NCBI GenBank assembly: GCA_024639975.1
Contig: JAHEFX010000010.1
Span: 1-41,909, forward strand
DNA from: a bacterium
GTDB lineage: Bacteria > Actinomycetota > Acidimicrobiia > Spongiisociales > JAENVV01
Length of the DNA stretch: 41,909 nucleotides
Direction: 5' to 3'
Shown: positions 10,536 to 25,643 of the stretch, in pieces
Layout of the letters: every line of letters starts with the position of its first letter
How positions within the stretch are numbered: position 1 is the first letter of the stretch
Made by a program: the position numbers and the translations under genes
Notes under the pieces: generated by a model
Seen by the model: only the letters and a program-made list of their open reading frames with translations
Database searches by the model: none
What the model was told of the DNA's origin: nothing

Positions 10536-11224
10536 AGGAGCATCCAACCGCCGTCCACGTACAGGTTCACGCCGTTGATCGCCGGGTTCTCGAGCAGGAA
10601 CTCGGTCGCTCCGACGACATCGTCCATGGTCGCAAGCTTGCCGGTGGGCGTTCGGTCGATCACGGCGTCGAGGGTCTTTCCCTCCCAGTAGGGGCTGTCA
10701 CCCACGATGCCCGGGTGGATGGCGTTGAACCGAATCGGCGCAAGCTGGATCGCGAGCGTACGGATGAGACTGCTCACGCCGCCATTGACGGTGGTGACCG
10801 TGGTCGATCCCGGGTAGGGGCGATCCTTGGCGCGCCCGCCGAACAGCACGACCGAGCTCTGGTCGGACAGTCGGTCCAACAGGACGTTGATCGTCGCCGT
10901 GTAGCCCACGAGCTTCATCGTCGTCAGGTAGATGGCTCCGTCGATGTCGTAGTTGCGGATCGGGTTGTCGTCCCGGGCGATGGACGAGAGGATCAAACGG
11001 GATACCGGGCCGACGTCGGCAAGGGCGGCTTCGATCGTGTCGGGGTGCGCCAGGTCGAAGCCGAGCCCCCGGACGCCGCGCCCGACATCGGCAGCGATGG
11101 CCGCAGCTCGTTCGGGGTCGCGTCCGGTCAGGACGACGTCGGCACCCTGCTCGTGATAGCGGCGGGCCACTTCGCGCCCGATACCGCCGGTGCCGCCGAC
11201 GACCAGCACTGTTCCCTCACTCAT
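10532..11224 (-). CDS. SDR-fold protein lacking the Tyr-x3-Lys catalytic pair
   Basis: This 230-residue protein has the NAD(P)-binding GGTGGIG loop and a second strand ending VVLTGRD, typical of short-chain dehydrogenases. Where the family has Y-x-x-x-K before the helix ending in L-x-R-x-L-A, this protein has V143-T-T-V-N147, so both catalytic residues are replaced. The C-terminus keeps family features (NAIHPGIV and an NLYVDGGWML ending). It could be a non-catalytic cofactor sensor or an enzyme with altered chemistry. ATG at 11224 has AGGAG upstream. It is coupled to the XRE-cupin regulator by GTGA, suggesting the pair work together. Confidence 0.82.
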   Translation of the reverse strand: MSEGTVLVVGGTGGIGREVARRYHEQGADVVLTGRDPERAAAIAADVGRGVRGLGFDLAHPDTIEAALADVGPVSRLILSSIARDDNPIRNYDIDGAIYLTTMKLVGYTATINVLLDRLSDQSSVVLFGGRAKDRPYPGSTTVTTVNGGVSSLIRTLAIQLAPIRFNAIHPGIVGDSPYWEGKTLDAVIDRTPTGKLATMDDVVGATEFLLENPAINGVNLYVDGGWMLL

Positions 11225-11341: not shown

Positions 11342-11352
11342 CGCTGAACAGT
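11337..11352. promoter_or_regulatory. Candidate operator: inverted repeat over the -10 box
   Basis: ACTGT (11337-11341) and ACAGT (11348-11352) are inverted around six bases and cover the -10 and start site of the plus-strand promoter. The adjacent XRE-cupin protein is the natural candidate to bind it, but this is inference from position. Confidence 0.35.
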
Positions 11353-11365
11353 GGTAAACGAATCG

Positions 11366-12241
11366 ATGTCGATCGCCGTCATAGGGCTGGGCCGGATGGG
11401 GGCTGCGATGGCTCGCCGACTCGCCGGTGCCGGCCACCGTCTGACGGTATGGAACCGGGACGGGAAGAAGGCCGCGACGATCGCCGCAGAGACCGGCGCC
11501 ACCCCGAGTGACTCCGCCGCGTCGGCGGTGGCCGGTGCCGAACTGGTCATCTCGAGCCTCGCCGACGATGCAGCGCTCCGATCCGTCTATCTCGGCGATG
11601 GCGGCGTCGTGGCCGGCCTCGGCACCGACACGGTCGTCGCCGATACCAGCACCGTTGACCCCGAAACGGTCTTCGAAGTCGGCCGAGCGATCGACGCCGC
11701 GGGCGCCGCCTTCCTCGATTGCCCGGTGTCGGGGAGTGTCTCGACCGTGGATACCGGTGCCCTGACCGTGATGGTGGGCGGCGACCCCGCCCAACTTCCC
11801 GTCCTCCGACGGGCATTCGACTCGATCGCCAAGACGGTGCTCCACGTCGGGCCCCGTGGGGCCGGGGCCGCAACCAAGCTCGCGGTCAACGGCCTGGTCC
11901 ATGGCCTCAACGTCGCTCTGGCCGAGGCACTGGTCCTCGCCGAGAGGGCTGGCGTCGAGCGTTCGACTGCGTACGAGGTCTTCGCCAGCGGCGCCGCAGC
12001 GGCACCTTTCGTGCTCTACAAGCGCGAGGCCTATGAGCGGCCGGACGAGGCGTCTGTGGCCTTCACACTCGATCTCGTCGCAAAGGACCTCGAACTGATC
12101 ACCGGCTTGGCCGATCGCGTCGGTGCGCCCATGGCACAGGCGGAGACGGACCTCGGGGTCGTCCGATCGGCGATCGACGCCGGTTTCGGTGCCAGCGACA
12201 TGAGCGCCGTGGCCGTCCATCTTCGTGGAGGAAGACCCTGA
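11366..12241 (+). CDS. Beta-hydroxyacid dehydrogenase (3-hydroxyisobutyrate dehydrogenase family)
   Basis: ATG at 11366 gives 291 residues; an in-frame GTG at 11351 would add five. The N-terminus has the GLGRMGAAMARRL dinucleotide loop. The substrate-binding DCPVSGS block follows, and the catalytic Lys is K171 in GAATKLAVN, as in 3-hydroxyisobutyrate, tartronate semialdehyde and succinic semialdehyde reductases of the GLYR branch. The enzyme interconverts a 3-hydroxy acid and an oxo or semialdehyde acid with NAD(P). It is the first gene of the plus-strand operon, and its TGA overlaps the ATG of the bicupin by one base. Which hydroxy acid it uses is not visible. Confidence 0.87.
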   Translation: MSIAVIGLGRMGAAMARRLAGAGHRLTVWNRDGKKAATIAAETGATPSDSAASAVAGAELVISSLADDAALRSVYLGDGGVVAGLGTDTVVADTSTVDPETVFEVGRAIDAAGAAFLDCPVSGSVSTVDTGALTVMVGGDPAQLPVLRRAFDSIAKTVLHVGPRGAGAATKLAVNGLVHGLNVALAEALVLAERAGVERSTAYEVFASGAAAAPFVLYKREAYERPDEASVAFTLDLVAKDLELITGLADRVGAPMAQAETDLGVVRSAIDAGFGASDMSAVAVHLRGGRP

Positions 12242-13131
12242 TGGCCGAGCACATCGTCAAACACCGGGAGGGGCTTGCCTTCGAGGTGCCCGCCGAATAC
12301 GAGCCCCGAAGCACCGGGTACACCGCCGACCCTGTCGTCTCCGAGATGGGTGGGGCAGTTCAGATGGGCTTCCGCGTGGCGCGAGTTGCCGCCGGGGGCA
12401 GCGTGGACACCCATCTGCATTCGTTCGAGGAATCGATCTACGTGGTCGACGGGGAACTGGTCTTGGACACCCCCGAGGGGAGCTACGAGCTCGTCACGGG
12501 CGACTACGGCCTCATCCCTGTCGGCATGCCGCACGCCTTGAGGAACCGGTCGGGCCGGCCCGTCGAGTTCGCGGAGATGCAGGCACCGCTGCCCAGGGCT
12601 CGTTTCGACCATGACACCAGGTTTCCCGAGCCCATCGTCGCCGCCGAACCGGTCCGGATCGACGTGCGCGATCCCCGCAACCGCTACTTCGGGCACATCG
12701 ACCGCGAGTCGATGGACCCGGCCGGCCAGACCCAGGACCGTCTCGCCGTGTCGGCGAGCATGCGGACGGCGTTGCTCGTCTACTCGGGGATCAGCGTGAA
12801 GATGATGGTCGACTCGGACCTCGGTGCGGACCTGTCCACGATGTTCATGGTCCAGTACGAGCAGGGGGGCTTCGCCGGCGCCCACGACCATCCCCTCGAG
12901 GAGGCCTACCTGATCCTCGACGGCGAGGTCGAGGCCTTCTTCGACGGCAAGCGATACGAGTTGTCGCCCGGCGACGTGGCCTGGGCGGGAGTCGGTTGCG
13001 TGCATGAGTTCCGCAACATCGGCGAGGGCCGCGTCCGGTGGCTCGAGACACAAGCGCCCCAGCCACCGCCACGCCATTCCTATCGCTTCGCCCGTGACTG
13101 GGAGTATCTCGACGGAGTGCTCGAAGGGTGA
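12241..13131 (+). CDS. Bicupin protein, similar in layout to ureidoglycine aminohydrolase
   Basis: This 296-residue cytoplasmic protein has two cupin barrels, at about 45-120 and 190-275. Each carries metal-binding motifs of the H-x-H-x(3-4)-E type: THLHSFEESIYVVDGEL in the first and AHDHPLEEAYLILDGEV in the second. Each also has a downstream His (GMPHALRN and CVHEFRN). Size and layout resemble (S)-ureidoglycine aminohydrolase (AllE/UGHY), a manganese enzyme of purine catabolism, but other bicupins such as dioxygenases and isomerases look alike, so I give no symbol. The gene lies between a hydroxyacid dehydrogenase (1-base overlap) and an amidohydrolase (28-base gap), which supports a catabolic role on the imported compound. 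Confidence 0.78.
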   Translation: MAEHIVKHREGLAFEVPAEYEPRSTGYTADPVVSEMGGAVQMGFRVARVAAGGSVDTHLHSFEESIYVVDGELVLDTPEGSYELVTGDYGLIPVGMPHALRNRSGRPVEFAEMQAPLPRARFDHDTRFPEPIVAAEPVRIDVRDPRNRYFGHIDRESMDPAGQTQDRLAVSASMRTALLVYSGISVKMMVDSDLGADLSTMFMVQYEQGGFAGAHDHPLEEAYLILDGEVEAFFDGKRYELSPGDVAWAGVGCVHEFRNIGEGRVRWLETQAPQPPPRHSYRFARDWEYLDGVLEG

Positions 13132-13159: not shown

Positions 13160-14446
13160 ATGAGCCGCACACTCATAAGGGGCGGGACGGTGTTGACCAT
13201 GGGCGGGTCCAACCACGTCGAGGCCGACGTCCTGATCGAGGACGGCTGGATCAGTGAGATCGCCCCCGGTCTGCGTGATCGCGGCGCCGAGGTGATCGAT
13301 GCTTCCGAGGCAATCGTCATGCCCGGCTTCGTCGATGCCCACCGACACCTGTGGCGGACCATCGCCAAGCACTTCGCCGATCCGTCGGTGGTCGAGGGCC
13401 TGGCCAGCCACCTCGAGCCGGACGACGTCTATGCCTCCACCCTTCTCGGGCTCCTGGCGTCGGCTGCTGCCGGCACCACGACGGTGGTCGATTGGTGCGA
13501 TGTAGCCGTCTCGGACGCCCATCTGGAAGCGGCCCTCCAGGCCCACGCCGACTCCGGTCTCAGAACGGTCTTCGCTCCCGGCTCCCACATTCCCAAGGCT
13601 TCGTGGCGGACCGCCCTGGACCGGGTTGCGGCCATGTCCGCCGAGCCGTTGCAGACCCTCTCGGCCGGGCCGCCCGACCCGGGTGTGAACGGGATCGATG
13701 CCGTCGACGACGGTATCGGGCACGCGCGCGAGCTCGGGATACGGTCCCACGTCCATGTCGGGACATCCGACGAGCAGCGTGGAGTCGTCGCCGAGATGGC
13801 TCGGCGACGATTGCTCGGCGACGACGTCACACTCGTCCACTGCACCAAGCTGGATGGGTCCGACCTTGACGCCCTTGCCCAAGCTGGTTCGCCGGTGGTA
13901 CTGACTCCCTCGACCGAGATGGCAAAGGGTGTGGGCATGCCGCCCGTGCAGGAGTTCTTGGACCGTGAGATAGTCATTGGCCTGGGCGTCGACGATGAGA
14001 GCCTCGCCCCCGGAGATGTCTTCGCACAGATGCGGGCGACGATCTCGCTCCAGCACGCGATGTACTTCGACCTCAAGCTGGTCGGCAAGGCCGGGCTCCC
14101 CAACCTCATGTCGACACGCGAGGTCATTCGTTGCGCCACCATCGACGGGGCACGTGCCGCAGGCTTGGCAGACCGGACTGGGAGCCTCGAGCCCGGCAAG
14201 CGTGCCGATCTCCTCGTGCTGCGCACGGATCGCCCGAACATCCACCCGATCAACGATCCGATCGGGGCCGTGGTGTGGGGAATGGACTCTTCGAACCTCG
14301 ATTGGGTGCTTGTGGCGGGGAGTCCGGTGGTCGAACGCGGCGAATCGGTTGCCGACGTCGCCAAGGTCCGGGACCTGGCCGAAGCCGCACTCCTTCGGGT
14401 CGGCGAACGGGCCGGACTCGTGACGGTTGGGGAGGCGGGAGCATGA
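13160..14446 (+). CDS. Amidohydrolase (ATZ/TRZ, deaminase-like branch), free-standing
   Basis: ATG at 13160 gives a 428-residue metal-dependent hydrolase; the frame is open further upstream, but the protein family begins at this Met. Metal ligands visible are H61 and H63 (DAHRHLW), H199 (HVHVGT), H227 (VHCTKL) and D278 (GVDDES). The C-terminus carries the usual ATIDGARAAGL and LEPGKRADLL blocks, which bring the chain back to the small beta domain. Deaminases of this branch have Glu three residues after the third His; here that position is Thr. The substrate is therefore open. It is paralogous to the amidohydrolase domain at the end of the 18552-21020 fusion. It overlaps the permease by ATGA. 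Confidence 0.85.
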   Translation: MSRTLIRGGTVLTMGGSNHVEADVLIEDGWISEIAPGLRDRGAEVIDASEAIVMPGFVDAHRHLWRTIAKHFADPSVVEGLASHLEPDDVYASTLLGLLASAAAGTTTVVDWCDVAVSDAHLEAALQAHADSGLRTVFAPGSHIPKASWRTALDRVAAMSAEPLQTLSAGPPDPGVNGIDAVDDGIGHARELGIRSHVHVGTSDEQRGVVAEMARRRLLGDDVTLVHCTKLDGSDLDALAQAGSPVVLTPSTEMAKGVGMPPVQEFLDREIVIGLGVDDESLAPGDVFAQMRATISLQHAMYFDLKLVGKAGLPNLMSTREVIRCATIDGARAAGLADRTGSLEPGKRADLLVLRTDRPNIHPINDPIGAVVWGMDSSNLDWVLVAGSPVVERGESVADVAKVRDLAEAALLRVGERAGLVTVGEAGA

Positions 14447-15486
14447 CCGACCGGCCCGCCAGTTCGAGCTTTGTCACGTCCTTCGTGGTGGCGTCACGGT
14501 ACCTGCCGGTGTACGTGGCGATCCTCCTGCTCGTGGCGGTGGCCGCCATCTGGGTGCCCCAGGTCCTCAGCCCAGTCGCCCTTGCGGCCATCGCCCCCTT
14601 CGGGGCCCTGCTCGGGATCACCGCCCTCGGGCAGATGCTCGTTGTGATGACCGGCGGCATCGACCTGAGCACCCCAGGAACACTGACGCTCGCGGCCATG
14701 ATCATGGTGGGGGTCGGGCAGCAATCCGACGATCGGATCTGGCTGGCCGTCGCAGTGGCGGTGGGGGTCGCGGCCCTCATCGGCCTGGTAAACGGCATCC
14801 TCATCGGCGGCATCAAGCTCAATCCCCTCATCGTGACCCTCGCCGTGGGCCAAGTCGTCGTCGGGGTCGTGAACCGGTACGCCAAAACCTTCCCGGTGCA
14901 GAGCGCGGTCCCATCGGCCTGGTCGGACTGGGCCTCCACCAGGATCCTTGGGATCAGCCCCATCTTCTGGGCGGGTCTGGCAGTCACCGGCTTGCTGATC
15001 GTCGGCCTGCGCTACACATCGTTCGGGCGCAGGTTCCAGGTCGTCGGAGCCAACCCCGTGGCGTCCCAGGTCGTGGGTGTCAGAGTCACCTTCAATCAGA
15101 TCATGGTCTACGTCGCTGCCTCCGCCCTCTACGCCGTGGCAGGCGTGGCCCTCGCCGGCCTCCTTCGCAACCCGGGGGTGAACATCGGCAGCCCCTACCT
15201 GCTGGGGCCGATCGCCGCAGTCGTGATCGGCGGCGCCTCCCTGACCGGTGGGCTCGCTTCGCCGCTTTCCACGTTCGCGGCGGCGGTCTTCCTCACGGGT
15301 CTCAACCAGATGATGTTGGCTCTCGGTCTCCCGACCTCTCTCCAGTTCGTGGTGTTCGGCGTCGTGATCATCGGCGGCATGCTCGTGTCGGGGGATCGGA
15401 TCATCAAAGGAGTCGAGCGGGTCCTGCGCGATCGGCGAAGACCTGTCTCGAGTTCATCGGCCGGGACTCCGGCCGGCCCTGGTTGA
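14443..15486 (+). CDS. ABC transporter permease, CUT2/RbsC type
   Basis: This 347-residue inner-membrane protein belongs to the branched-chain amino acid/ribose permease family (BPD_transp_2). It has about 8-10 hydrophobic segments and the conserved block VVMTGGIDLSTPGT near residue 70. It has the cytoplasmic coupling region (GRRFQVVGANPVASQVVGV) and the later GGASLTGGLASP loop. It is one of two permease chains in the operon; the other is the N-terminal half of the 18552-21020 protein. The two probably form the heterodimeric channel fed by the binding protein at 15554 and driven by the ATPase at 16990. The start makes an ATGA overlap with the amidohydrolase. Confidence 0.9.
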   Translation: MTDRPASSSFVTSFVVASRYLPVYVAILLLVAVAAIWVPQVLSPVALAAIAPFGALLGITALGQMLVVMTGGIDLSTPGTLTLAAMIMVGVGQQSDDRIWLAVAVAVGVAALIGLVNGILIGGIKLNPLIVTLAVGQVVVGVVNRYAKTFPVQSAVPSAWSDWASTRILGISPIFWAGLAVTGLLIVGLRYTSFGRRFQVVGANPVASQVVGVRVTFNQIMVYVAASALYAVAGVALAGLLRNPGVNIGSPYLLGPIAAVVIGGASLTGGLASPLSTFAAAVFLTGLNQMMLALGLPTSLQFVVFGVVIIGGMLVSGDRIIKGVERVLRDRRRPVSSSSAGTPAGPG

Positions 15487-15506: not shown

Positions 15507-15557
15507 ATGACAAAGACACGCATGAGAAGAAAGCTCAAGGAGGAAGCACACACATGA
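15507..15557 (+). CDS. Possible 16-codon basic leader ORF, ATGA-coupled to the binding protein
   Basis: ATG at 15507 opens a 16-codon frame, reading MTKTRMRRKLKEEAHT, whose TGA overlaps the ATG of the binding-protein gene. The perfect AAGGAGG ribosome site for that gene (15537-15543) lies inside it. Translation of the leader could open or mask this site. It may equally be chance, because no clear ribosome site precedes the leader itself. Confidence 0.25.
   Translation: MTKTRMRRKLKEEAHT
15537..15543 (+). promoter_or_regulatory. Perfect Shine-Dalgarno (AAGGAGG) before the binding protein
   Basis: AAGGAGG lies 10 nt before ATG 15554. It is the strongest ribosome site noticed in the window and fits the need for excess binding protein over the other transporter parts. 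Confidence 0.7.
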
Positions 15558-16957
15558 GGAACTATCTGAAACTGATCGGACTGGTGGCCATCTTTGCGAT
15601 GGTGCTCGTCGCCTGCGGTGGCGACGATGACGGGTCGGACTCGACCGAGGCAGCCCCCGATACCACCGAAGCCGCCCCGGATACCACCGAGGCTCCGGAC
15701 GAGACCACCACGACTGCCGTTGACGATGGCGGAGACGACGGCGACGAAATGGGTGACAACCCGCTCGCCGACTACGGGGAGGATCCGAACGCTGCCGACC
15801 CCGCCCTCGTTGCGAAGGCACTGGGTCCGGTGACGCCGTCCGACGACGCGAGCTGGAACATCATCCTGGCCTCGATCGCAAGAGCGGGCCAGGACATCGA
15901 CCAGGCGACCATCGACACGGCGATGGATTGCTGGGCGAACCAGGAGTGCGATACCGGCAGCGGCGGCGAGCTCGTCATGGGCTACGCCGATGGTGGCGGC
16001 GACTCCGTCAACGTCTGGCGTGGGGTGAGCCACATGGAGGCCATCCTCCAGGCGCTCACCTATCCCGAAATCGGCACGATCGTCTCCACGGCGGCCAACT
16101 TCGAACAGGACCCCGCCGTCCATGAGCAGGGCATCCGGTTCCTCGTGCAGCGTGGCGTCGACTTCATCGTCGGCTACCCCGACTTCGGTGTGGCGCTCTC
16201 CGGCGTGATCGCCGAAGCCGAGGCCGCCGGCATTCCCTATCTGTCCTTCTCGGCGGGCTACGTGGGCCTTCCCGGTCAGGACGGTGCCCTCGTCCCGGGA
16301 GAGGACTACACGTCGGTGATCGGTGAGGACCTCTGCGCACTTGGCGAGAGCTTCGCCGACGTCCTGAACACGGGCATCGGCGAGGGCGAAGCCGGCATGC
16401 TCGGCGGGACGCCGGGCAATGCCCTGACCCTCGGTTGGCAGCAGTGTGCCGTGGACGCCCTGTCGGACACGGTCACGCTGGTGAACCCTCCGGCGGACGA
16501 GAACTCGACGACGGGTGACACCTACTGGGTGAACACCTTCGCGCTCGATGCCGTCCGTGGCCTGCTCACCACCAACCCGGAAGTCCGCGGTTGGGCCTAC
16601 GAGTACTCCGACGGGCTCTTCACGGCCCTCCAGGCCTACGACGAGCTCGGCATCCCGGTGGAGAACCTGACCATCGCCCTTCGCACCGACGAGCAGACGC
16701 TCTTCTGCGACTGGGCCGAGCGTGGTGAGCCGACGTACAACATCTTCTACTCGGCCGGAGGGAACTTCCAGTCCCGGACGGCCGTCACTGCGGCGATGTT
16801 GGCCCTCCAGGGCGCCGAGGTACCCGGCCAGGTGGTCGTGCCGCACGTGATGCGGCAGGTGACGGCCGACGACTGTGACCCTGATCGGGTGAACGCGGTT
16901 GTCTCGGGCACGTCGCTCGTACCCAATGCCGTCCTCGAGGTGATGTACGGCGGCTGA
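15554..16957 (+). CDS. ABC transporter substrate-binding lipoprotein (sugar/nucleoside-type periplasmic-binding fold)
   Basis: This 467-residue protein starts with a lipoprotein signal ending at C21 (VLVAC). A low-complexity Asp/Thr/Glu linker follows to about residue 70, built partly of a repeated EAAPDTT unit, then a two-lobed class I binding fold of the Peripla_BP_4 type. The first lobe includes MGYADGGGDSVNVWRG and the stretch ending VDFIVGYPDFG; the hinge and second lobe follow with GMLGGTPGN. It would capture the substrate at the outer face of the membrane and hand it to the two permeases. Four Cys in the mature domain (near DCWANQECD, DLCALG, QQCAV and FCDW) may form disulfides. The ligand is unknown. 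Confidence 0.9.
   Translation: MRNYLKLIGLVAIFAMVLVACGGDDDGSDSTEAAPDTTEAAPDTTEAPDETTTTAVDDGGDDGDEMGDNPLADYGEDPNAADPALVAKALGPVTPSDDASWNIILASIARAGQDIDQATIDTAMDCWANQECDTGSGGELVMGYADGGGDSVNVWRGVSHMEAILQALTYPEIGTIVSTAANFEQDPAVHEQGIRFLVQRGVDFIVGYPDFGVALSGVIAEAEAAGIPYLSFSAGYVGLPGQDGALVPGEDYTSVIGEDLCALGESFADVLNTGIGEGEAGMLGGTPGNALTLGWQQCAVDALSDTVTLVNPPADENSTTGDTYWVNTFALDAVRGLLTTNPEVRGWAYEYSDGLFTALQAYDELGIPVENLTIALRTDEQTLFCDWAERGEPTYNIFYSAGGNFQSRTAVTAAMLALQGAEVPGQVVVPHVMRQVTADDCDPDRVNAVVSGTSLVPNAVLEVMYGG
15647..15709 (+). repeat. 21-nt tandem repeat coding the lipoprotein linker
   Basis: Two near-identical 21-nt units (15647-15667 and 15668-15688) and a degenerate third encode E-A-A-P-D-T-T. Such slippage-prone repeats vary linker length between the lipid anchor and the binding domain. 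Confidence 0.7.
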
Positions 16958-16989
16958 GCCGATCCACGAGTGACCCAGTAGGAGTGTCG

Positions 16990-18555
16990 ATGACCCAAGA
17001 ACTCGTACTCGAGATGGAAGGCGTGTCCCGCCAATTCGGGACGGTACGGGCGCTGACGGATGTCAGCTTCCAGTGCCGTGCCGGAGAGGTGCACGCCCTC
17101 GTCGGAGAGAACGGTTCGGGGAAATCGACACTCCTCGGGGTCGCTTCGGGGTTCGTCGACCCGGACCGTGGCTCGGTGATGATCGGAGGAGTCCCACTCA
17201 GGCGTGATTCACCGGCCCAGGCCCGCAAGCTCGGGCTCTCGATGGCCTATCAGGATGGTTCGTCCGTCGGGGCCGAGCCGGTCAAGAACAACCTCTTCTT
17301 CGCCGCGCCGACCGACCAACGTCCACCGTTCTGGAGGCGCAAGAAGTGGGCCCGACGCCTTCTCGCCGACTTCGACCTCGACCTCGAGCTCTTCCCGGAC
17401 GCCCCGGCCGGCATGCTCACCATGGCCGAGCGGCAGCTCTTCGAGGTGGCCAAGGCCCTGGTCACCAATCCCAAGGTGCTCCTGCTCGACGAGCCGACCA
17501 CGGCTCTCGGCCCCGACGAGGTGGACGCACTGCACCGCACCGTGGCTGCCTGCAAGAAGGCGGGCGTGGGCGTGGTCTACGTCAGCCACCGGCTTCCCGA
17601 GGTGCTCGAGGTTGCCGACCGGGTCACCGTTCTCCGGGACGGTGAGTACCAAGGCACGTTCGAGGCGGCCACGACCTCCGAGTCACAGCTCGTCGAGCAC
17701 ATCGTCGGACGGCCATTCGAGGCGGCGTTTCCACCAGCGGAGCCGCCATCGCCGGAGACGGGGGAAGTGCTCATCGTCGACGGTCTCCAGGGGCAGTCGT
17801 TCGGGCCGGTCAGCTTCACGCTGCAGGCTGGGGAGATCGTCGGCATCGCCGGGGCGGAAGGCAATGGACAGCCCCAGCTGTTCGACACGCTCGCCGGACG
17901 TACCCCCCCGAGGGCCGGAAGGGTCGTTTGCGAGGGGGAGGAGCTCAACCTCGTCTCCACCCACGAAGCCGTGGGCGCCGGGATCATGTTGCTGCCGGGT
18001 GACCGCAAGGGAGAGGCGCTCATGGGAGTCCTCGGCGTTCGGGTCAATGCGACGATCCAGTCGTTGGGGCGCTTCACGTCTGCGGGCTTCCTGAAGCGGG
18101 GCAAGGAGCGTGAGGAGGTCGACAGCCTCGTTGAAGAGCTCGAGATCCGCACCCCCTCGCTCGACCAGCCGGTCGAGTTCCTCTCGGGCGGCAACCAGCA
18201 GAAGGTGGTCGTCGCCCGGACGTTCCTGCGGGAGCCGTCGGTGATCCTTGCCTACGAGCCGACCCAAGGCGTCGACGTCGGCTCCCGATTCGACATCTAC
18301 AAGGCCCTCCGTTCACGCACGTCCGAAGGTGCCGGCATCCTCGTCAAGTCGAGCGACCCGATCGAGCTCTCGGGACTCTGTGATCGGGTGTTCGTCATGT
18401 CCCGTGGGACGATCGTCGAAGAGATCCCCGGCGACGAGCTGGACGAGGTCCGGATCGTGGAGGCGATAGTCAGGGGCCCCGGCCTGTCCAAGGAGGCGCG
18501 GTCGCCTCTTGGGGTGGCGATGCCCAAGGCGGCGTCCGTTGGAGAGTCCGCATGA
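16990..18555 (+). CDS. ABC transporter ATP-binding protein, two fused nucleotide-binding domains (RbsA/MglA type)
   Basis: ATG at 16990, six bases after AGGAG, gives 521 residues; the GTG at 16984 overlaps the ribosome site. The first nucleotide-binding domain has Walker A GENGSGKST with K45, a TMAERQLFEVAKAL signature helix and Walker B VLLLDEPTTAL. The second has a degenerate Walker A (GAEGNGQPQLF), a full LSGGNQQKVVVAR signature and the Walker B variant ILAYEPTQGVDVG, with Tyr (Y422) where Asp is usual. A degenerate second site is common in CUT2 importers; the EGNGQ loop and altered Walker B recall nucleoside importers. It powers the importer formed with the two permeases. It overlaps the fusion gene by ATGA. 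Confidence 0.9.
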   Translation: MTQELVLEMEGVSRQFGTVRALTDVSFQCRAGEVHALVGENGSGKSTLLGVASGFVDPDRGSVMIGGVPLRRDSPAQARKLGLSMAYQDGSSVGAEPVKNNLFFAAPTDQRPPFWRRKKWARRLLADFDLDLELFPDAPAGMLTMAERQLFEVAKALVTNPKVLLLDEPTTALGPDEVDALHRTVAACKKAGVGVVYVSHRLPEVLEVADRVTVLRDGEYQGTFEAATTSESQLVEHIVGRPFEAAFPPAEPPSPETGEVLIVDGLQGQSFGPVSFTLQAGEIVGIAGAEGNGQPQLFDTLAGRTPPRAGRVVCEGEELNLVSTHEAVGAGIMLLPGDRKGEALMGVLGVRVNATIQSLGRFTSAGFLKRGKEREEVDSLVEELEIRTPSLDQPVEFLSGGNQQKVVVARTFLREPSVILAYEPTQGVDVGSRFDIYKALRSRTSEGAGILVKSSDPIELSGLCDRVFVMSRGTIVEEIPGDELDEVRIVEAIVRGPGLSKEARSPLGVAMPKAASVGESA

Positions 18556-21020
18556 GCGAACCCATCTCCACGACACGCACCGACGAGGCGCGTCGGCTCT
18601 TTCGCAATCTCCTTCGGGACGCCCGCGACAAGGAGAAGTGGCGCAAGATCGTTCGCGTCCGGCTCTGGATGCCGGTCGCCCTCCAGGCCCTGTTGATCGT
18701 CGGCCTGCTCTGGTACACCAGCTCTCGGTTCGAGGGCTTCCTCAACGAGTCGAATCTCTACAACATCCTGCTGCTCGCCATGCCGCTGGCCGTGGCCGCC
18801 TACGCCCAGACCCACGCAATCCTCGTCGGCTACCTCGACCTGTCCGTCGGCGCGATGATCAGCTTCGGGGTGGTGGTCGCGTCGTTCCTCATAGGCCCGG
18901 AGGCGTCGACCACGGAGATCTTCCTCGGTCTGGGCGTGATCCTCGTTGCGGGACTCGCGTTGGGGAGCGTCAATGCAGGGTTGATCCGAGGCCTGAAGAT
19001 CCCCTCGATCATCGCCACGCTTGCCACGCTCAGCATCCTCGACGGGATCTCGCTCTCGCTGCGGCCGACGGCCCAAGGCATCATCAGCGGCGACATCGTC
19101 GCCTTTCTGACCGCCGGTGTCGGTCCTGTTCCCTACGCCTTCGTCGTCATCGTCGTGGCGGCGGCACTCATGGATCTCTGGTTGCACGCCTCTGGGTCGG
19201 GACTGCAGGTCCGAGCGGTCGGGTTCGATGACCGGGCCGCCAAGCGAGCCGGTATCTCGACGATATGGATCCGGGTTCGGGCATTGCTCATCGCCGGCAT
19301 GCTCGGGGCCGTCGCGTCGTTCTTCGTGATGGCGCGCTCGCCGATCGGCAACGCCCAGATCGGGTCCTCCTTCGCCCTCAACAGCATCACTGCCGCCGTC
19401 TTGGGTGGCGCATCGCTGGCCGGCGGGCGGGCCACGTTCGTAGGCTCCCTCGTCGCCTCGCTGTTGGTCGCGCTGATCATCTCCGTTCTCCCGTTCCTCG
19501 GGCTGTCGCCGAGCGACGGCACGATGATCGTCGGACTGCTCGTCCTCATCGGCATCGTCCTCTTCCAGGTCGGGGACCTCAAGGAACTCGTGAAGCGCAA
19601 CTTCCGGCGGGCGAGGCGGCTTGTCCAGGGTTCTCGGGTCGATGAGGTCGCCGAGCTTCCGGATGTCTATCCCAGCAGCACCGACTTCAACGTCGTGCCT
19701 TCGGGCCGGATCCTCGTTCAGGGCGGCACGGTGCTGTCGATCGATCCGAACATCGGGGATCTCGCGACCGGCGACGTCCTCATCGAGGGCGATCGGATCG
19801 TGGAGGTCGGCCCCGGCCTCCGGGTGGAGAACGCGGAGGTGATCGACGCCGGCGGCATGATCGTCATGCCCGGCTTCGTCGACACGCACCGACACATCTG
19901 GGAAGGCGTGCTCCGCAACATCGGCACCGACGTGCCGCTCGAGGGCCGCACGAGCTACATCTCCCACGTCCTCCACAAGCTGGCCCCGGCCTTCAGGCCG
20001 CAGGATGTCTACGCCGGAGACCTGGTGTCGGCCCTGGGAGCCCTTGATGCCGGGGTGACGACCCTGCTCGACTGGTCCCACATCCAAGGCTCCCCCGAAC
20101 ACACCGACGCGATCGTCCAGGCGCTGGACGACTCCGGCATGCGAGCGGTCTTTGCGTACGGTTTCCCCTGGTGGGGCAAATGGGAGGAGCGCCAGCCGAG
20201 CTGGTTCGTGCGGGCGGCTACCGAGCACTTCTCGACGAGTGACCAACGCCTCACGCTGGCGCTCGCCGCGCCCGGTCCCGAGTTCACCGACTTCGAGGTG
20301 TCACGGGACCACTGGAAGCTCGCCCGCGAGGCCGGAGCTCGCATCACCGCTCACGTCGGGGTCGGTTCCTACGGCATGGATCGCAAGGTGCAGGAGATGG
20401 GCGAAGCCGGCCTACTCGGTCCCGATACGACGTACATCCACTGCACGACACTGAGCGATACCGAGATCCAGATGATCGTCGACACGGGCGGCACCGTCAG
20501 CCTGGCCTCACCGGTCGAGATGATGATGGGACACGGCATGCCGCCGATCCAGAAGTTCCTGGACAGGGGTCTGGTGCCGAGCCTCAGCGTTGATGTGGAA
20601 ACCAACGTCCCCTCCGACATGTTCAACCAGATGCGCTCCGTGCTCGCTCTCCAGCGGGTGATCGCATTCCGCGACGGCAAGCAGCCCCTGGGGGCACGCG
20701 ACGTGCTCGCGATGGCCACGATCGAGGGAGCGCGTGCCAACGGGTTGGCTGATCGCACGGGCTCGCTGACGCCGGGGAAGCAGGCCGACCTCGTCCTCCT
20801 TCGGACCGATCGGTTGAACGTGATGCCGCTGAACGACCCGGCCACGGCCGTGGTCACCAGCATGGACACCAGCAACGTCGACACCGTCCTCGTTGCCGGT
20901 CACGTGCTGAAGCGGGACGGCGAACTGACCCATGTCGACTGGGAGGCGGTGAAGCGAATGGTGAGCGAGTCGCGGGACTTCGTCATCCAGAAGTCCGGCT
21001 TCCGCCCCCCGAAGATCTGA
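18552..21020 (+). CDS. Fusion protein: ABC permease (CUT2) joined to a C-terminal amidohydrolase
   Basis: This is one uninterrupted 822-residue reading frame. Residues about 40-360 are a RbsC-type permease with many hydrophobic segments, including GYLDLSVGAMISFGV, the coupling region GSGLQVRAVGFDDRAAKRAG and a GGASLAGGRATF loop. After a basic stretch and a linker of about 30 residues, residues about 386-815 are a complete amidohydrolase: metal ligands H446 and H448 (DTHRHIW), H601 (AHVGV), H630 (IHCTTL) and D681 (SVDVET). Its closing blocks are ATIEGARANGL and LTPGKQADLV. Position H601+3 is Val, not the Glu of deaminases. CUT2 permeases end in the cytoplasm, so the hydrolase would sit at the channel exit. 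The domain is paralogous to the free enzyme at 13160-14446. No stop or frameshift separates the halves. Confidence 0.9.
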   Translation: MSEPISTTRTDEARRLFRNLLRDARDKEKWRKIVRVRLWMPVALQALLIVGLLWYTSSRFEGFLNESNLYNILLLAMPLAVAAYAQTHAILVGYLDLSVGAMISFGVVVASFLIGPEASTTEIFLGLGVILVAGLALGSVNAGLIRGLKIPSIIATLATLSILDGISLSLRPTAQGIISGDIVAFLTAGVGPVPYAFVVIVVAAALMDLWLHASGSGLQVRAVGFDDRAAKRAGISTIWIRVRALLIAGMLGAVASFFVMARSPIGNAQIGSSFALNSITAAVLGGASLAGGRATFVGSLVASLLVALIISVLPFLGLSPSDGTMIVGLLVLIGIVLFQVGDLKELVKRNFRRARRLVQGSRVDEVAELPDVYPSSTDFNVVPSGRILVQGGTVLSIDPNIGDLATGDVLIEGDRIVEVGPGLRVENAEVIDAGGMIVMPGFVDTHRHIWEGVLRNIGTDVPLEGRTSYISHVLHKLAPAFRPQDVYAGDLVSALGALDAGVTTLLDWSHIQGSPEHTDAIVQALDDSGMRAVFAYGFPWWGKWEERQPSWFVRAATEHFSTSDQRLTLALAAPGPEFTDFEVSRDHWKLAREAGARITAHVGVGSYGMDRKVQEMGEAGLLGPDTTYIHCTTLSDTEIQMIVDTGGTVSLASPVEMMMGHGMPPIQKFLDRGLVPSLSVDVETNVPSDMFNQMRSVLALQRVIAFRDGKQPLGARDVLAMATIEGARANGLADRTGSLTPGKQADLVLLRTDRLNVMPLNDPATAVVTSMDTSNVDTVLVAGHVLKRDGELTHVDWEAVKRMVSESRDFVIQKSGFRPPKI

Positions 21021-21025
21021 CCGGA

Positions 21026-22204
21026 TCAGGCGAGTACCCGTTGGGCGATGTGGTCGCCGATGGCCAAGCTTGAGGTCGCGGCGGGCGACGGGGCGTTCAG
21101 GACATGCACCGCCCGGCCATGCTCGACGACGGCGAAGTCGTCGAGCAGCTCTCCGTCCCGGGCGACGGCTTGGGCCCGGACCCCGGCCCCTGCCCGTATG
21201 AGGTCTTCGGGGCCGAGATCAGGCACCAGGGCCTGCGCGGTCCTGGCGTACGAAGAGGGCCAGGCCGAGTGCCACAGCTCTTCGGTTCCGGTGCGCCAGT
21301 AGCGGCCCACGATGCGCCAGAAGCCGGGCCACCCGATGGTCGCAGCAAGGTCTCGGGGCGACGGACGGGTGCCGCGGTAGTGCTCGCGTCCCAGCGCCAG
21401 CACGGCGTTCGGGCCAACCTCGACGCTGTCGTCGATCCGTCTCGTGAAGTGGACCCCGAGGAACGGGAAGCGGGGGTCCGGCACCGGGTAGATCATGCCA
21501 GCAACGAGGTGGGTGGCTGCTTCCCTCAGGGCGAAGTACTCGCCGCGGAACGGGATGATCCGCAGGTCCGCCTGAACCCCGGCGAGCGCCGCGACGCGAT
21601 CCGACTGGAGGCCGGCGCAGTTGACGAGTCGGGTCGCTCGAACGGCACGCTCACCGGCGGTGATGGTGAATCCGTCGGTATCGGTGCGGATACTGTCGAC
21701 GAGGAAATCGGTGACCAGCTCCAGGGGCCGCGCCAACTCCCTTGCGACCAGTCCATAGTCGACGACGCTCGTCTCCGGCACCCACAACGCTGCGACGCCC
21801 GTGGCGTGTGGCTCGTGGTCGCGAATCCCGCCCGCTCCGAGGCGTTCTACACCGGTCAGCCCATTGGCTCGTGCGCGTCGGTGCAGTTCCTCGAGGGCCG
21901 GCAGCTGGTCCGCCCGCGTGGCCGTGACGATCTTCCCATGCCGACCGACCGGGACGCCCGCTTGGTCGCAGAAGTCGAGGAGGCGGCGGCGCCCTGCCAC
22001 GCAGAGCCGAGCCTTCAAGGTGCCGGGCCGGTAGTACAGCCCGGAGTGGACGACACCGCTGTTGTGACCGGTCTGGTGGGTACCGACGTCCGATTCCTTG
22101 TCGAGAACGACGACATCGAGATCGGGTCGTCGATCCAAGAGGGCCCGAGCCGCGGCCACGCCCACGATTCCCGCTCCGATGACGGCGACGTCATGGCGGT
22201 CCAT
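21026..22204 (-). CDS. lhgO: L-2-hydroxyglutarate oxidase/dehydrogenase, FAD-dependent
   Basis: This 392-residue flavoprotein of the DAO family has the N-terminal VIGAGIVGVAAARALL loop and a second strand ending VVLDKE. The LhgO-specific stretch TGHNSGVVHSGLYYRPG follows, then GKIVTA and an FRGEYFAL block. The C-terminal NAPSPAATSSLAIG segment binds FAD. The enzyme oxidises L-2-hydroxyglutarate to 2-oxoglutarate and passes electrons to oxygen or quinone. ATG at 22204. It lies 46 bases after the E1beta gene on the same strand, so it is probably the last gene of the LacI-controlled E1alpha-E1beta-lhgO unit. Its stop is 5 bases from that of the convergent permease-hydrolase fusion. Confidence 0.87.
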   Translation of the reverse strand: MDRHDVAVIGAGIVGVAAARALLDRRPDLDVVVLDKESDVGTHQTGHNSGVVHSGLYYRPGTLKARLCVAGRRRLLDFCDQAGVPVGRHGKIVTATRADQLPALEELHRRARANGLTGVERLGAGGIRDHEPHATGVAALWVPETSVVDYGLVARELARPLELVTDFLVDSIRTDTDGFTITAGERAVRATRLVNCAGLQSDRVAALAGVQADLRIIPFRGEYFALREAATHLVAGMIYPVPDPRFPFLGVHFTRRIDDSVEVGPNAVLALGREHYRGTRPSPRDLAATIGWPGFWRIVGRYWRTGTEELWHSAWPSSYARTAQALVPDLGPEDLIRAGAGVRAQAVARDGELLDDFAVVEHGRAVHVLNAPSPAATSSLAIGDHIAQRVLA

Positions 22205-22250
22205 GTGAGTCAGTCCACCTGACCCCTGCGCCGTGGCTCGGGCGGGTGGT

Positions 22251-23225
22251 TCAGACGAGGCCCTTCTTGACTTCGGCGACGATCCGCTCGACCGATGGGA
22301 TGGTCTCATCCTCGAGGCCACCCGATGACGGGAGCGGGACATGCGGGGTGGTGATGCGAACGATTGGTGCGTCGAGGTGCCAGAAGGCTTCGTCGACGGC
22401 GATCGACACGATCTCCGCACCCCACCCGAGGACCCTCGGGTTCTCCTCGACGGTGAAGAGCCGGCTGGTCTTTTCCACCGAGCCGAGGATCGTCGCGGTA
22501 TCGAGTGGGATGAGTGACCTGACGTCGATGACCTCGGCGTCGATGCCCTCGCCGGCCAGGATCTCTGCCGCTTCCAGGGCGCGGGGCACCATGAGCGCCA
22601 GGGCGACGATGGTGAGGTCGGCGCCCGGACGGACGATCTTTGCCGTACCGAGCTCGTCGAGGATCTCCCCGTCTGGGACTTCGGCCTTGCTCGCATAGAG
22701 CGACTTGTGTTCGAAGAAGAGCACCGGGTCGGGATCACGGACCGAGGCCGCCAACAGTCCCACGACGTCGGCCGGCGTGCTCGGAGCGACGACCTTCAGA
22801 CCGGGTACCGCCATGGCCCAGTTCTCGACGCTCTGAGAGTGCTGGGCACCGAAGCGAGCCCCACCCCCGTTTGCCGATCGGATCACGAGCGGGACCTCGA
22901 CCTGACCGTTGGTCATGTAGCGGGCCTTGGCAATCTCGTTGACGACGATGTCCCACGCAACGGCGAAGAAGTCGCTGAACATGATCTCGGCGATGGGCCG
23001 CAGACCGGTCATGGCCGCGCCCATGGCCGCTCCCAGGATCGCCTGCTCGGAGATCGGTGTGTCAACCACGCGCCGGGGACCGAACCTGTCCAACAATCCG
23101 ACGGTCGTCTTGAAGACACCACCGGCGCCCGCCACGTCCTCGCCGATGAGGAAGACCCGCTCGTCGCGGTCCATCTCCTGGGCGATGCCCCGGGCGACCG
23201 CCTCCCGATAGCTCAGTTCCGCCAT
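22251..23225 (-). CDS. Thiamine-diphosphate 2-oxoacid (pyruvate/acetoin) dehydrogenase E1 beta subunit
   Basis: This 324-residue E1 beta chain has family blocks in order: an N-terminal FLIGEDVAG, TPISEQAILGAAMGAAM, a PLVIRSANGGG strand, AQHSQSVENW, then VAPSTPADVVGLL and a transketolase C-terminal domain with IDVRSLIPLD. With the alpha chain upstream it forms the alpha2beta2 decarboxylase of pyruvate, acetoin or branched-chain 2-oxoacid dehydrogenase complexes. The ATG at 23225 lies inside the last codons of the alpha gene (13-base overlap), so the two are coupled. No E2 or E3 gene lies nearby, so it must use partners encoded elsewhere. The substrate within this group is uncertain. Confidence 0.9.
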   Translation of the reverse strand: MAELSYREAVARGIAQEMDRDERVFLIGEDVAGAGGVFKTTVGLLDRFGPRRVVDTPISEQAILGAAMGAAMTGLRPIAEIMFSDFFAVAWDIVVNEIAKARYMTNGQVEVPLVIRSANGGGARFGAQHSQSVENWAMAVPGLKVVAPSTPADVVGLLAASVRDPDPVLFFEHKSLYASKAEVPDGEILDELGTAKIVRPGADLTIVALALMVPRALEAAEILAGEGIDAEVIDVRSLIPLDTATILGSVEKTSRLFTVEENPRVLGWGAEIVSIAVDEAFWHLDAPIVRITTPHVPLPSSGGLEDETIPSVERIVAEVKKGLV

Positions 23226-24367
23226 TGGTACCCCCCGTCCGCGTAGACGTCGGTGAAAATGACCGAGGGATCCGGTTTGGCCGCAGCCTTGGCGTCTTCG
23301 GTCGCTTCGTCGACTCGCTCGGCCACAGAGGTCTGGATCCCGGTCAGGGTCGACTCGTCGACGCCGATACGGAGCAGTCGCTGGTGGTAGAGAGGGATCG
23401 GGTCGCGATCCTTCCACGCTTCGACCTCCGCCGAGGGTCGGTACGTCCCGGGGTCGGCTCGCGAGTGCCCGCCGTGTCGGTAGGTGAGCGTCTCTATCAG
23501 GGACGGGCCACCACCGGAGCGGGCCTTCTCCAAGGCGTCCCGAGCCGTGAGGTATACGGCATCGGCGTCGTTGCCGTCGACCACGATCGACTCCAGACCG
23601 TAGGCCGGGGCCCTGTCGGCTGCTGGGTGCTCCACAGCCGTGATCTGGCCGATCGGGGTGTACTCCATGTAGAGGTTGTTCTCGCACACGAAGACGACGG
23701 GGAGGTCGTACACGGCGGCGAAGTTGAGGGCCTCGTGGAAGGCGCCGATGTTGGTGGTCCCGTCTCCGAAGAAGGCCACGGCGACCTGGTCGGTCCCGCG
23801 ATACCTCGCCGACCACGCGGCGCCGTTGGCGATGCAGAGGTGGGCACCGATGATCGCGTAGCTCCCGAGCATCCCGTGCTCCACACTCGTCAGGTGCATT
23901 GACCCGCCCTTGCCGCCGAGGAGTCCCGACTCGCGCCCCAGCATCTCCCCGATGAGGCCCTTCATCGAGGCGCCACGGGCCAGCGTGTGGCCGTGACCGC
24001 GATAGGTGGCGAACGAGTAGTCGTCCGACCGGAGGAGTGTCCCGAAGGCTGCTGCAGTCGCCTCCATGCCGGTGTATAGGTGGCTGGTCCCCTGGACGAG
24101 GCCCATCACGAACAGTCGATGCAGCTGGGTCTCGACCTGTCGGATCTCTTGTTGGAGCTCGTACATTCGAAGACGATGCTCGAGGGGGATCGGCGCCTGG
24201 TCGAGGGTGCTGTCGACGGGAGGTGGAAGCGTCGGGTCGTGGGCGCCATATGGCTTGTCCATGCGGCCCATCGCGGCCTCGGGGGTGGTCATGCTGGGAT
24301 CCTCTCCGGCGTCCTCGGCCGCACGCCTGGCCCGCAGTCGCTCAAGGGGATTCATGGCGTCGTCCAT
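23213..24367 (-). CDS. Thiamine-diphosphate 2-oxoacid (pyruvate/acetoin) dehydrogenase E1 alpha subunit
   Basis: ATG at 24367 gives 384 residues; ATG at 24355 is also possible, while the TTG at 24394 would sit almost on the predicted transcript start. After an unusual Arg-rich and Pro-rich N-terminal extension of about 75 residues, the catalytic domain follows with QGTSHLYTGMEA, FATYRGHGHTLARG and GGKGGSMHL. The thiamine diphosphate motif runs from GDGTTNIGAFHEAL to VFVCENN. The enzyme decarboxylates a 2-oxoacid or cleaves acetoin. It heads the E1alpha-E1beta-lhgO unit behind a LacI-type operator at 24434-24447. The extended N-terminus is not needed for catalysis. Confidence 0.88.
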   Translation of the reverse strand: MDDAMNPLERLRARRAAEDAGEDPSMTTPEAAMGRMDKPYGAHDPTLPPPVDSTLDQAPIPLEHRLRMYELQQEIRQVETQLHRLFVMGLVQGTSHLYTGMEATAAAFGTLLRSDDYSFATYRGHGHTLARGASMKGLIGEMLGRESGLLGGKGGSMHLTSVEHGMLGSYAIIGAHLCIANGAAWSARYRGTDQVAVAFFGDGTTNIGAFHEALNFAAVYDLPVVFVCENNLYMEYTPIGQITAVEHPAADRAPAYGLESIVVDGNDADAVYLTARDALEKARSGGGPSLIETLTYRHGGHSRADPGTYRPSAEVEAWKDRDPIPLYHQRLLRIGVDESTLTGIQTSVAERVDEATEDAKAAAKPDPSVIFTDVYADGGYQWRN

Positions 24368-24409
24368 CTCCGATTCGGCGTCTCGGCGGGGCAACCGCTC
24401 GGATGGCTG

Positions 24410-24438
24410 ACCCTATCGAACAGACCCCACAAATGCAA
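24410..24438 (-). promoter_or_regulatory. Candidate LacI-controlled promoter of the E1alpha-E1beta-lhgO unit
   Basis: On the minus strand, TTGCAT (24433-24438) is 17 nt from TAGGGT (24410-24415). The promoter at 25574-25602 has the same -10 hexamer, the same 17-nt spacing and a -35 differing in one base. The operator overlaps the -35. The predicted start leaves a leader of about 36 nt before ATG 24367. Confidence 0.65.
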
Positions 24439-24447
24439 GCGATTGAA
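24434..24447. promoter_or_regulatory. LacI-family operator, site 1
   Basis: TGCAAGCGATTGAA reads TTCAATCGCTTGCA on the other strand and differs at one base from site 2 (TGCAATCGCTTGCA). The CG centre with inverted TGCAA/TTGNA arms is typical of LacI-family operators. It lies between the lacI stop and the E1alpha gene. Confidence 0.72.
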
Positions 24448-24462
24448 TCCGGGTTGATCGGT

Positions 24463-25497
24463 CTATTCGCGAGGCGGTGCGGTGCTCCGACGGGGCACGA
24501 ATTCAGGGTCGAGGGCGACATCACCGAAGCGGGGCTCACCAGCCGCGAGGGAGAGGGCGACCGTCGCGGCTTCGTGGCCGACCTGCCAGCCGGGGAAGCG
24601 GACTGTGGTGAGGGCAGGGTCGAGGTGCTCGGTGAGGGGCATGTCGTTGTAGCCGGCAACCGAGACGTCGTCCGGTACCGACTGGGCGCGTCGGCGCAGC
24701 GCGGCCACGGCGCCGACTGCCAGGAGGTCATTGTGGGCGAAGACCGCCGTTGGAAGAGGACCGCGGTCGAGCAGCTCGTCCATGAGCCGAGATCCTTCGT
24801 CGATCGTCGGCCGAGCCGCTACGAGCCGGGGTGTGGCCTCTTCGAGTCCCATCTCAGAGGCCCTGGCAGAGAAGCCCTCGGCGCGGTTGGGGAAGTTGAG
24901 GACTTCCTCGGGTCCTCGTAGTTGGGCCACCCGTCGGTGGCCCAACTCGGCGAAGTGCTCGGCCAAGAGACGCCCGCCCAGACGAGAGCGCTCCCGGACG
25001 ACCGGAACGCCTATGTCCTCGAGGGGGCGGGCGGCGACCACCGTCGGGACGAGCCGGCTGGTCGCCTCGATGATCTCACGGTCGGCGCGCCGGGCTGCCA
25101 GGACCACGATGGCGTCCACGCGGCGAGCCACCATGTGATCGAGCAAGGCGGCGAGGGTCGAGGAGTCATCACCTGTCTCGGCTATCACGGGGACGGAGCC
25201 CGATGAGGTCATGCGGCTCGTGAGCCCATGGATTATCGGCGTCACCCAGGGGTTCCCGAGGTCGGCCGCAATGACGGCGATCGTCGCCGTGCGGCCCTCT
25301 TTGAGGCCCTTGGCGGCCAGGTTGGGTCGGTATCCCAGCCGGTCGGCGGTTTCGACGATGCGTCGCCGCGTCGGGGCCTTGACCATGGCGGCCTTGGCTG
25401 GATCGAGGGCCCGGCTGACGGTCGAGGGATGCAGGTCGAGCTCGGCGGCGATGTCGGCGAGCGTCGCGTTTCTTCGCTGTCCGCCCGTGTCGGTCAT
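24463..25497 (-). CDS. LacI-family transcriptional regulator
   Basis: This 344-residue regulator has an N-terminal LacI helix-turn-helix (TLADIAAELDLHPSTVSRAL) and hinge-region sequence GYRPNLAAKGLKEG. A class I periplasmic-binding-like sensor domain follows, with typical elements such as AVIAADLGNPWV, PTAVFAHNDLLAVGA, DDVSVAGYND and TTVRFP. ATG at 25497. It probably represses its own gene, the divergent M24 gene and the downstream E1alpha-E1beta-lhgO unit, because near-identical palindromes overlap all three promoters (24434-24447 and 25565-25578). The effector is unknown; the target set suggests a metabolite linked to 2-oxo or 2-hydroxy acids, or the M24 substrate. Confidence 0.92.
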   Translation of the reverse strand: MTDTGGQRRNATLADIAAELDLHPSTVSRALDPAKAAMVKAPTRRRIVETADRLGYRPNLAAKGLKEGRTATIAVIAADLGNPWVTPIIHGLTSRMTSSGSVPVIAETGDDSSTLAALLDHMVARRVDAIVVLAARRADREIIEATSRLVPTVVAARPLEDIGVPVVRERSRLGGRLLAEHFAELGHRRVAQLRGPEEVLNFPNRAEGFSARASEMGLEEATPRLVAARPTIDEGSRLMDELLDRGPLPTAVFAHNDLLAVGAVAALRRRAQSVPDDVSVAGYNDMPLTEHLDPALTTVRFPGWQVGHEAATVALSLAAGEPRFGDVALDPEFVPRRSTAPPRE

Positions 25498-25550
25498 GGG
25501 TCCTACTTCCAACGTTCGCGATTGGCGGGACTCCCTTGCGCCCCCCGGGT

Positions 25551-25579
25551 ATTGAAGCCGACGATGCAATCGCTTGCAA
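25551..25579 (-). promoter_or_regulatory. Candidate promoter of lacI, sharing its -35 with the divergent M24 promoter
   Basis: Minus-strand TTGCAA (25574-25579) is 17 nt from TTCAAT (25551-25556), which matches TATAAT at four positions. TTGCAA is its own reverse complement, so the same six bases serve as -35 on both strands. Confidence 0.55.
25565..25578. promoter_or_regulatory. LacI-family operator, site 2 (lacI/M24 divergent promoter)
   Basis: TGCAATCGCTTGCA is a near-perfect palindrome (TGCAA-TCGC-TTGCA) and covers the shared -35 of both divergent promoters. A repressor bound here would block lacI and the M24 gene together. Confidence 0.75.
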
Positions 25580-25602
25580 GGCGATCGGGAGCCGGATAGG
25601 GT
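25574..25602 (+). promoter_or_regulatory. Candidate LacI-controlled promoter of the M24 gene
   Basis: TTGCAA (25574-25579) is 17 nt from TAGGGT (25597-25602). The start site would be near 25609, giving a leader of about 35 nt with AGAGGAGA before ATG 25644. Confidence 0.65.
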
Positions 25603-25643
25603 CGAAGTGCGCCGCCCTCGAGACACGAGCAGAGGAGACACCG

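Follow-up and report, generated by a model that had tools for sequence, protein, structure and literature searches.

ATP-binding cassette (ABC) importers of the CUT2 type, which include the arabinose, ribose and autoinducer-2 (AI-2) families, are built from BPD_transp_2 permeases, a double ATPase and a Peripla_BP_4 binding protein, and where two permeases are present, the two form the channel. Amidohydrolases of the ATZ/TRZ type, such as AtzA, TrzN and the S-adenosylhomocysteine (SAH) and 8-oxoguanine deaminases, have a common fold and a set of metal-site residues (HxH, H, H, D). Transporters joined to an enzyme acting on their cargo have been described. In some bacteria, the lysophospholipid flippase LplT and the acyltransferase Aas are encoded in one open reading frame (ORF), and the functions of the fused forms are uncharacterised (PMC11416262). 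Likewise, another described protein holds a transporter and the enzyme for the transported molecule in one chain (PMC8115632). Here, we analysed a gene that joins a CUT2-type permease to an ATZ/TRZ-type amidohydrolase. It lies at 18552..21020 on the forward strand of contig JAHEFX010000010.1 of the Acidimicrobiia assembly GCA_024639975.1. The whole contig of 41,909 nucleotides (C161 in our numbering) is referred to as the window, and it belongs to a draft genome of 2.35 Mb in 179 contigs that is 84% complete.

A permease and an amidohydrolase in a single frame

The ORF at 18552-21020 begins with ATG and stays open for 822 codons with no internal stop; the ORF listing, Pfam and NCBIfam agree on a fusion protein of 822 residues. 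The permease half comprises residues 39-341 (18666..19574), as judged from Pfam, the model helices and the charge pattern; its BPD_transp_2 match covers residues 69-333 with 67.7 bits (cutoff 26.8). A linker of low predicted local distance difference test score (pLDDT) follows at residues 357-385 (19620..19706). The amidohydrolase half comprises residues 386-815 (19707..20996), with Amidohydro_1 matching residues 437-785 at 110.5 bits (cutoff 25) and the NCBIfam model PRK08204 (NF006056) covering the entire half at 519 bits, above its curated cutoff of 391. The description of PRK08204 is “hypothetical protein” and nothing more. These data confirm the initial annotation, made from the sequence, which had read one unbroken frame running from a CUT2-type permease through a linker of about 30 residues into an amidohydrolase. 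Its view that both halves are complete is backed by the Pfam, NCBIfam and Foldseek matches.

The start codon of the fusion gene sits within the stop codon of the upstream ATPase gene (ATGA, a 4-nt overlap), and the same overlap is present in 25 of the 33 aligned rows in which the end of the ATPase gene is in view. Separate production of the enzyme half from an internal start was considered and is unsupported: start codons lie near the junction in all 37 aligned fusion rows (36 distinct, as L031 and L009 are duplicates), and a Shine-Dalgarno-like motif precedes one of them in 14 rows, at differing places.

The initial annotation had proposed a search for the same domain order in other genomes. 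Our scan of named genomes returned 54 loci, 41 of which match over both halves with at least 700 residues. A single frame holds both halves in 40 of these 41, the frame-broken one being L068; in the UBA6912 assembly (L068/L113, 6245-8546) the fusion is split over two frames. By their labels, most of the fusion loci belong to Anaerolineae or to actinomycetotal bins (Acidimicrobiia and others), and one is from Desertimonas flava. L032, on a 3.5-kb contig binned as Fimbriimonadaceae, may be misbinned. The other 13 loci consist of incomplete copies cut at contig ends (L063, L064, L069) or lying near one with broken frames (L070), a truncated remnant (L076), standalone enzymes (L066, L067, L074) and five distant matches. 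The match of L063 covers residues 2-467, up to the contig end, and L064 begins inside the linker. In L076 (7965-8669, from a bin named Acidobacteria), the last permease helices and the enzyme start stand directly behind a cupin gene, through deletion or misassembly. L027 and L063, both from bin Ww501, represent two differing copies of the fusion start and reflect a second operon or a strain mixture.

In samples of whole genomes, 395 from the class yielded 21 with a one-frame fusion, each ordered as in the window; two of the 21 begin within the permease (residues 61 and 122). The 396 genomes sampled from the phylum yielded six, of which five belong to other classes. Sampling around an Anaerolineales genome (G396) recovered the fusion in the same two genomes from its class (396 genomes) and its phylum (400). 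The fusion is thus a widespread yet minority trait. Within the window's family, four of six other genomes keep it, and the absence in all close relatives that the initial annotation had named as a refuting case was not found. In G003, of the same family, the search recovered no fusion and no close free copy. G001 was set aside as a candidate relative lacking the fusion: its free amidohydrolase, free permease, binding protein and ATPase all match, and a run of Ns begins 19 bases after an ATGA start at the end of the ATPase gene, so the place of the fusion falls in an assembly gap that does not bear on its absence. The contigs of G284, G342 and G340 stop short of where the fusion would lie, and G351 and G094 have only other, more distant free enzymes. 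Among plasmid records, 996 gave a match, none covering 80% of the fusion protein.

The fusion could be an artefact of assembly or sequencing that removed a stop between two genes, and the window does come from a fragmented draft of 179 contigs. No support for such an error, which the initial annotation had also named as a refuting case, was found, and none of the 37 aligned rows has a break in the frame. Moreover, the identical junction occurs in independent assemblies of two phyla, D. flava included, which rules this explanation out for practical purposes. The fusion protein is real and of single origin.

Phylogenies of both halves point to that origin. The enzyme tree holds 90 distinct amidohydrolase domains, 44 labelled fused and 46 free; L063 and L064 carry unfused or free labels in the trees, though a contig end truncates each. 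One group with 100/99 support unites the fused rows with L064, which is cut within the linker, and the fused state changes once on this tree when L064 is counted as fused. In the permease tree, the 44 fused permeases group with the contig-cut L063 (92/97 support, not starred). Their nearest unfused relative is the last permease of an operon in D. flava (L096); at 4419-11188 of that locus (C23:275000-294000), the operon encodes a double ATPase, two permeases and two binding proteins and has no fused enzyme. Both trees contain flagged long branches, that of the D. flava L096 row among them. Judged from these trees, the fusion arose once. In the enzyme tree, the Actinomycetota rows are nested in Anaerolineae rows, with one fork not starred and the root not inferred. 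This nesting would fit a transfer between phyla; the permease tree leaves the branching unresolved.

Active site and predicted placement of the fused enzyme

The metal-site residues of the fused enzyme are H446, H448, H601, H630 and D681, in the HxH, H, H, D arrangement. All five, which the initial annotation had already discerned, are retained in each of the 44 distinct fused enzymes, a set that leaves out L063 and L064, as well as in the 21 free rows outside the divergent group described below. Foldseek matched the enzyme half to AtzA, TrzN, SAH-deaminase-like structures and 3hpa, with TMt of about 0.8 (0.87 for 3hpa). None of the 50 Foldseek matches listed for the fusion model is a permease structure.

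Helix limits were taken from an AlphaFold2 model, and loop net charges were summed over the 37 aligned rows. Ten predicted membrane helices were assigned in the permease half, so that both of its ends would be cytoplasmic. The mean net charge is +7.7 for the N-terminus (+6 in the window protein), +3.5 for the coupling loop 214-240 (+2), +3.9 for the stretch after the last helix including the linker (only +1 in the window protein) and +1.9 for loop 144-152; the loops set outside carry between -0.9 and +1.1. Together, the loop charges and the model favour both permease ends, and hence the enzyme half, lying on the cytoplasmic side, as the initial annotation had predicted. Because the profile search returned no solved permease homologue, this topology draws on the charges, the model helices and general knowledge of permeases.

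The stretch R356-L387 that contains the linker measures 30-37 residues in 34 of the 37 aligned fusions and 54-59 in the remaining three. Mean pairwise identity across these rows is 75% for the enzyme half, 58% for the permease and 31% for the linker. The check on linker conservation suggested earlier therefore returns a mostly constant length with a poorly conserved sequence.

The surrounding operon and the free paralogue

The fusion and the genes upstream of it lie on the forward strand, in the order dehydrogenase, cupin, free amidohydrolase, free permease, binding protein, double ATPase and fusion. The dehydrogenase (11351..12241; Pfam, NCBIfam) is of the 3-hydroxyisobutyrate/tartronate-semialdehyde type and is a recurrent neighbour; the two-domain cupin (12241..13131; Pfam) also recurs in related loci. 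The order from the free amidohydrolase to the fusion is conserved across loci. The free amidohydrolase (about 13160..14446; Pfam, NCBIfam) is 44% identical to the fused domain, and the free permease (about 14443..15486; BPD_transp_2, 98 bits) is kept beside the fusion in related loci. That both share the fusion's operon, as first noted from the sequence, holds by Pfam. The substrate-binding protein (15554..16957) matches Peripla_BP_4 with 57.9 bits (cutoff 35.1) and gives weak matches to the CUT2 binding proteins 4rs3 and 5hko. The double ATPase (16984..18555) contains two ABC_tran stretches in 523 aa and resembles AraG, XylG and RbsA with scores below those cutoffs. CUT2-type features are thus present: two BPD_transp_2 permeases above cutoff, a single double-ABC ATPase and a Peripla_BP_4 binding protein. 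In two other loci, L100 (1697-4237, 846 aa) and L101 (2691-5198, 835 aa), a double ATPase is joined in a single frame to a permease of this class, which is another kind of importer fusion.

No substrate-specific NCBIfam model reaches its cutoff among the best 25 matches per protein. Because the scores fall far below these cutoffs, a sugar substrate cannot be assumed. Searches with the binding protein, the cupin and an M24-type protein for substrate clues gave weak or general relatives only, and resemblances to DddP and to ureidoglycine aminohydrolase, far below family cutoffs, were set aside. This M24-type hydrolase, related to DddP, ectoine hydrolase and creatinase, is encoded downstream together with a LacI regulator, two dehydrogenase E1-like subunits and a protein resembling a flavin adenine dinucleotide (FAD) oxidase (25536-26897 and 21026-25677); these neighbours recur in related loci and may share the fusion's pathway. 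Further downstream, a metallophosphoesterase and an SbcC/Rad50-type ATPase form an SbcD/SbcC-like pair (32310-35935) unrelated to the fusion.

The free amidohydrolase accompanies the fusion closely. Thirty loci show the fusion with the free permease, or 28 distinct ones after removal of the second copies L097 and L099, and 26 of these have the free amidohydrolase. The other two are limited by their contigs, L056 starting at the permease and L065 inside an enzyme gene. The initial annotation had recorded its presence in the operon, which stands; its fast evolution, and a loss of the metal site that occurs elsewhere and not in the window, had gone unseen. The window's free copy scores 350 on PRK08204, below the cutoff of 391, and belongs to a divergent free group of 25 rows, 20 of them actinomycetotal (from Acidimicrobiia-type loci) and five from Anaerolineales. 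At least one ligand residue is missing in 12 of the 25, by at least six changes on the tree. Among the actinomycetotal rows the loss affects seven of 20, with L036, L037 and L060 missing three residues; among the Anaerolineales rows it affects all five, with His601 replaced by Gln. At 43 positions conserved to at least 99% in all other rows, the divergent group keeps 70% on average, and eight of these positions are kept in fewer than 10% of its members. Some other Anaerolineae instead have a free copy of near-fused type with all ligands present.

Evolutionary rates separate the two enzymes further. Across 13 loci (those with both rows in the tree, of 14 selected), tree distances between free copies are 3.8 times those between their fused partners and are larger in 78 of 78 non-independent pairs. 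In 10 of 11 chosen genome pairs, the nonsynonymous rate (dN) is higher for the free copy than for the fused enzyme, the exception being L048/L058, whose free copy is of the fused-like type. Every pair with a usable synonymous rate (dS) has dN below dS, with several dS values above 1 and near saturation; L047/L048 gave no usable dS for most genes. Among them are four Anaerolineales pairs and L029/L113, where each free copy has lost one ligand; none of the pairs involves copies that have lost three. The free copy of D. flava, which is without three of the five ligands, is predicted to fold into the same barrel (pLDDT 87, predicted template modelling score (pTM) 0.89) from an input alignment that contained intact relatives. 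By their sequences, the divergent free paralogues resemble partner proteins on the way to becoming pseudoenzymes. Losing the metal site while the gene is kept would suit a partner with a structural or regulatory role.

Possible roles of the fusion and comparison with known systems

Taken together, we propose that the fusion is one of the two permeases of a CUT2-type importer with a tethered ATZ/TRZ-type hydrolase that converts the incoming compound, with the free amidohydrolase as partner; we give this explanation as a whole a probability of roughly 0.55. The fused and the free permease would together form the channel, and one double ATPase and one binding protein would complete the importer. 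A flexible linker would hold the enzyme at the inner membrane face, where it would act on the entering compound or on something closely derived from it; position and stoichiometry would thereby couple import to the first step of catabolism. The free amidohydrolase is probably a hetero-oligomer partner of the fused enzyme that has been losing its own catalysis in several lineages. From these sequences, conversion of an imported small compound on arrival appears the most likely function, and its hydrolysis on entry is plausible.

Several observations weigh against this explanation. The glutamate of the HxxE motif (HLAE in 3hpa, after the third His), a catalytic residue with a role in proton transfer, is replaced by V604 in every fused row (37 of 37 aligned, 44 of 44 in the larger set), and the 46 free amidohydrolase rows all lack Glu at this position; a TrzN E241Q mutant structure is among the Foldseek match titles. 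Because this glutamate is absent, the reaction should not be assumed to be a deamination, and the chemistry of the fused enzyme may differ from that of known deaminases. Close relatives of the enzyme stand unfused in other Anaerolineae, so the enzyme does not require tethering. Of the six loops assigned to the inside, 91-98 (-1.1) and 286-296 (+0.9) are not clearly positive, whereas a loop assigned to the outside reaches +1.1. Structure prediction, named in the initial annotation as a means of placing the enzyme at the cytoplasmic face, did not determine the relative position of the halves: the AlphaFold2 model of the fusion (pLDDT 78, pTM 0.56, weak linker) leaves the enzyme unfixed with respect to the channel. 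Finally, all five ligands persist in 13 of the 25 divergent free copies, among them that of the window, and the loss in L025, one of the 12, amounts to no more than an Asp to Glu change.

The retained ligands bear on whether the free and fused amidohydrolases instead handle two successive intermediates, with ligand loss marking lineages in which one of the steps was given up. Two steps would agree with the 13 ligand-complete free copies (that of the window and 12 others) and with the eight positions conserved elsewhere at which the divergent group differs. However, the free gene keeps its reading frame and its position even where ligands have been lost, dN remains below dS where both free copies miss one ligand (the four Anaerolineales pairs and L029/L113), and a folded protein is still predicted for the D. 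flava copy, which lacks three ligands. We regard this possibility as less likely than not. It is slightly less likely still that the fusion only fixes equal amounts and co-localisation, leaving transport and catalysis uncoupled. The poorly conserved linker (31% identity, with a few long variants) and the unfused close relatives of the enzyme, two of them beside genes resembling another ABC importer, are in keeping with mere co-localisation, whereas the single origin, the retention across two phyla with no sure reversal in these samples and the mostly constant linker length speak against it.

Some ABC importers have regulatory C-terminal domains, and the enzyme half might mainly be a regulator, gating the transporter on binding of the imported compound or of the product made from it. 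Its likely position next to the ATPases and the missing HxxE glutamate are compatible with such a role. Nevertheless, the enzyme half is the most conserved part of the fusion, and its five ligands are kept in 44 of 44 rows, as catalysis expects; a pure sensor could lose them, as some free paralogues have done. We regard the regulator as improbable. In a more ambitious form of the tethered-hydrolase explanation, transport and hydrolysis would be the work of one machine that releases its product only inside, with an active fused enzyme and a dedicated partner turning pseudoenzyme in some lineages, and with the enzyme pair and the permease pair each forming a heterodimer of one fused and one free member. 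We consider this arrangement rather unlikely in full.

Standalone close relatives of the enzyme occur in Anaerolineales at L066 (the place of L111) and L074 (the place of L110), near cupins and short ABC ATPases. By Pfam, the short ATPases of L066 are part of a transporter of the branched-chain-amino-acid type, and an HpaB-type monooxygenase, a flavin reductase and a short-chain dehydrogenase/reductase (SDR) are encoded nearby. We would guess from this neighbourhood that the substrate is a heterocyclic or aromatic nitrogen compound.

If the fused enzyme acts on the incoming compound, nature would here have built a catalytic step into an ABC importer, in which the physical coupling of ATP-driven import and metabolism could be addressed directly. 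Metal-site residues were lost repeatedly in the free paralogue, while the fused enzyme next to it is invariant; these loci provide a natural series from enzyme to partner protein.

The initial annotation knew of no described importer with this layout. A full-text literature search aimed at such a fusion or at PRK08204, which covers neither subscription journals nor domain-architecture databases and is weak evidence of absence, agrees with this, with no study of a permease-amidohydrolase fusion among the matches listed. Compared with other CUT2-type importers, one of the permeases here carries an enzyme. Unlike the known ATZ/TRZ-type amidohydrolases, the enzyme is fused to a permease and has V604 where 3hpa has the HxxE glutamate. 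LplT-Aas joins a flippase to an acyltransferase, whereas the transporter here is an ABC importer; the protein of PMC8115632 differs in transporter class and reaction. The fusion is therefore a new form within the known transporter-enzyme fusions, accompanied by an unusual free paralogue.

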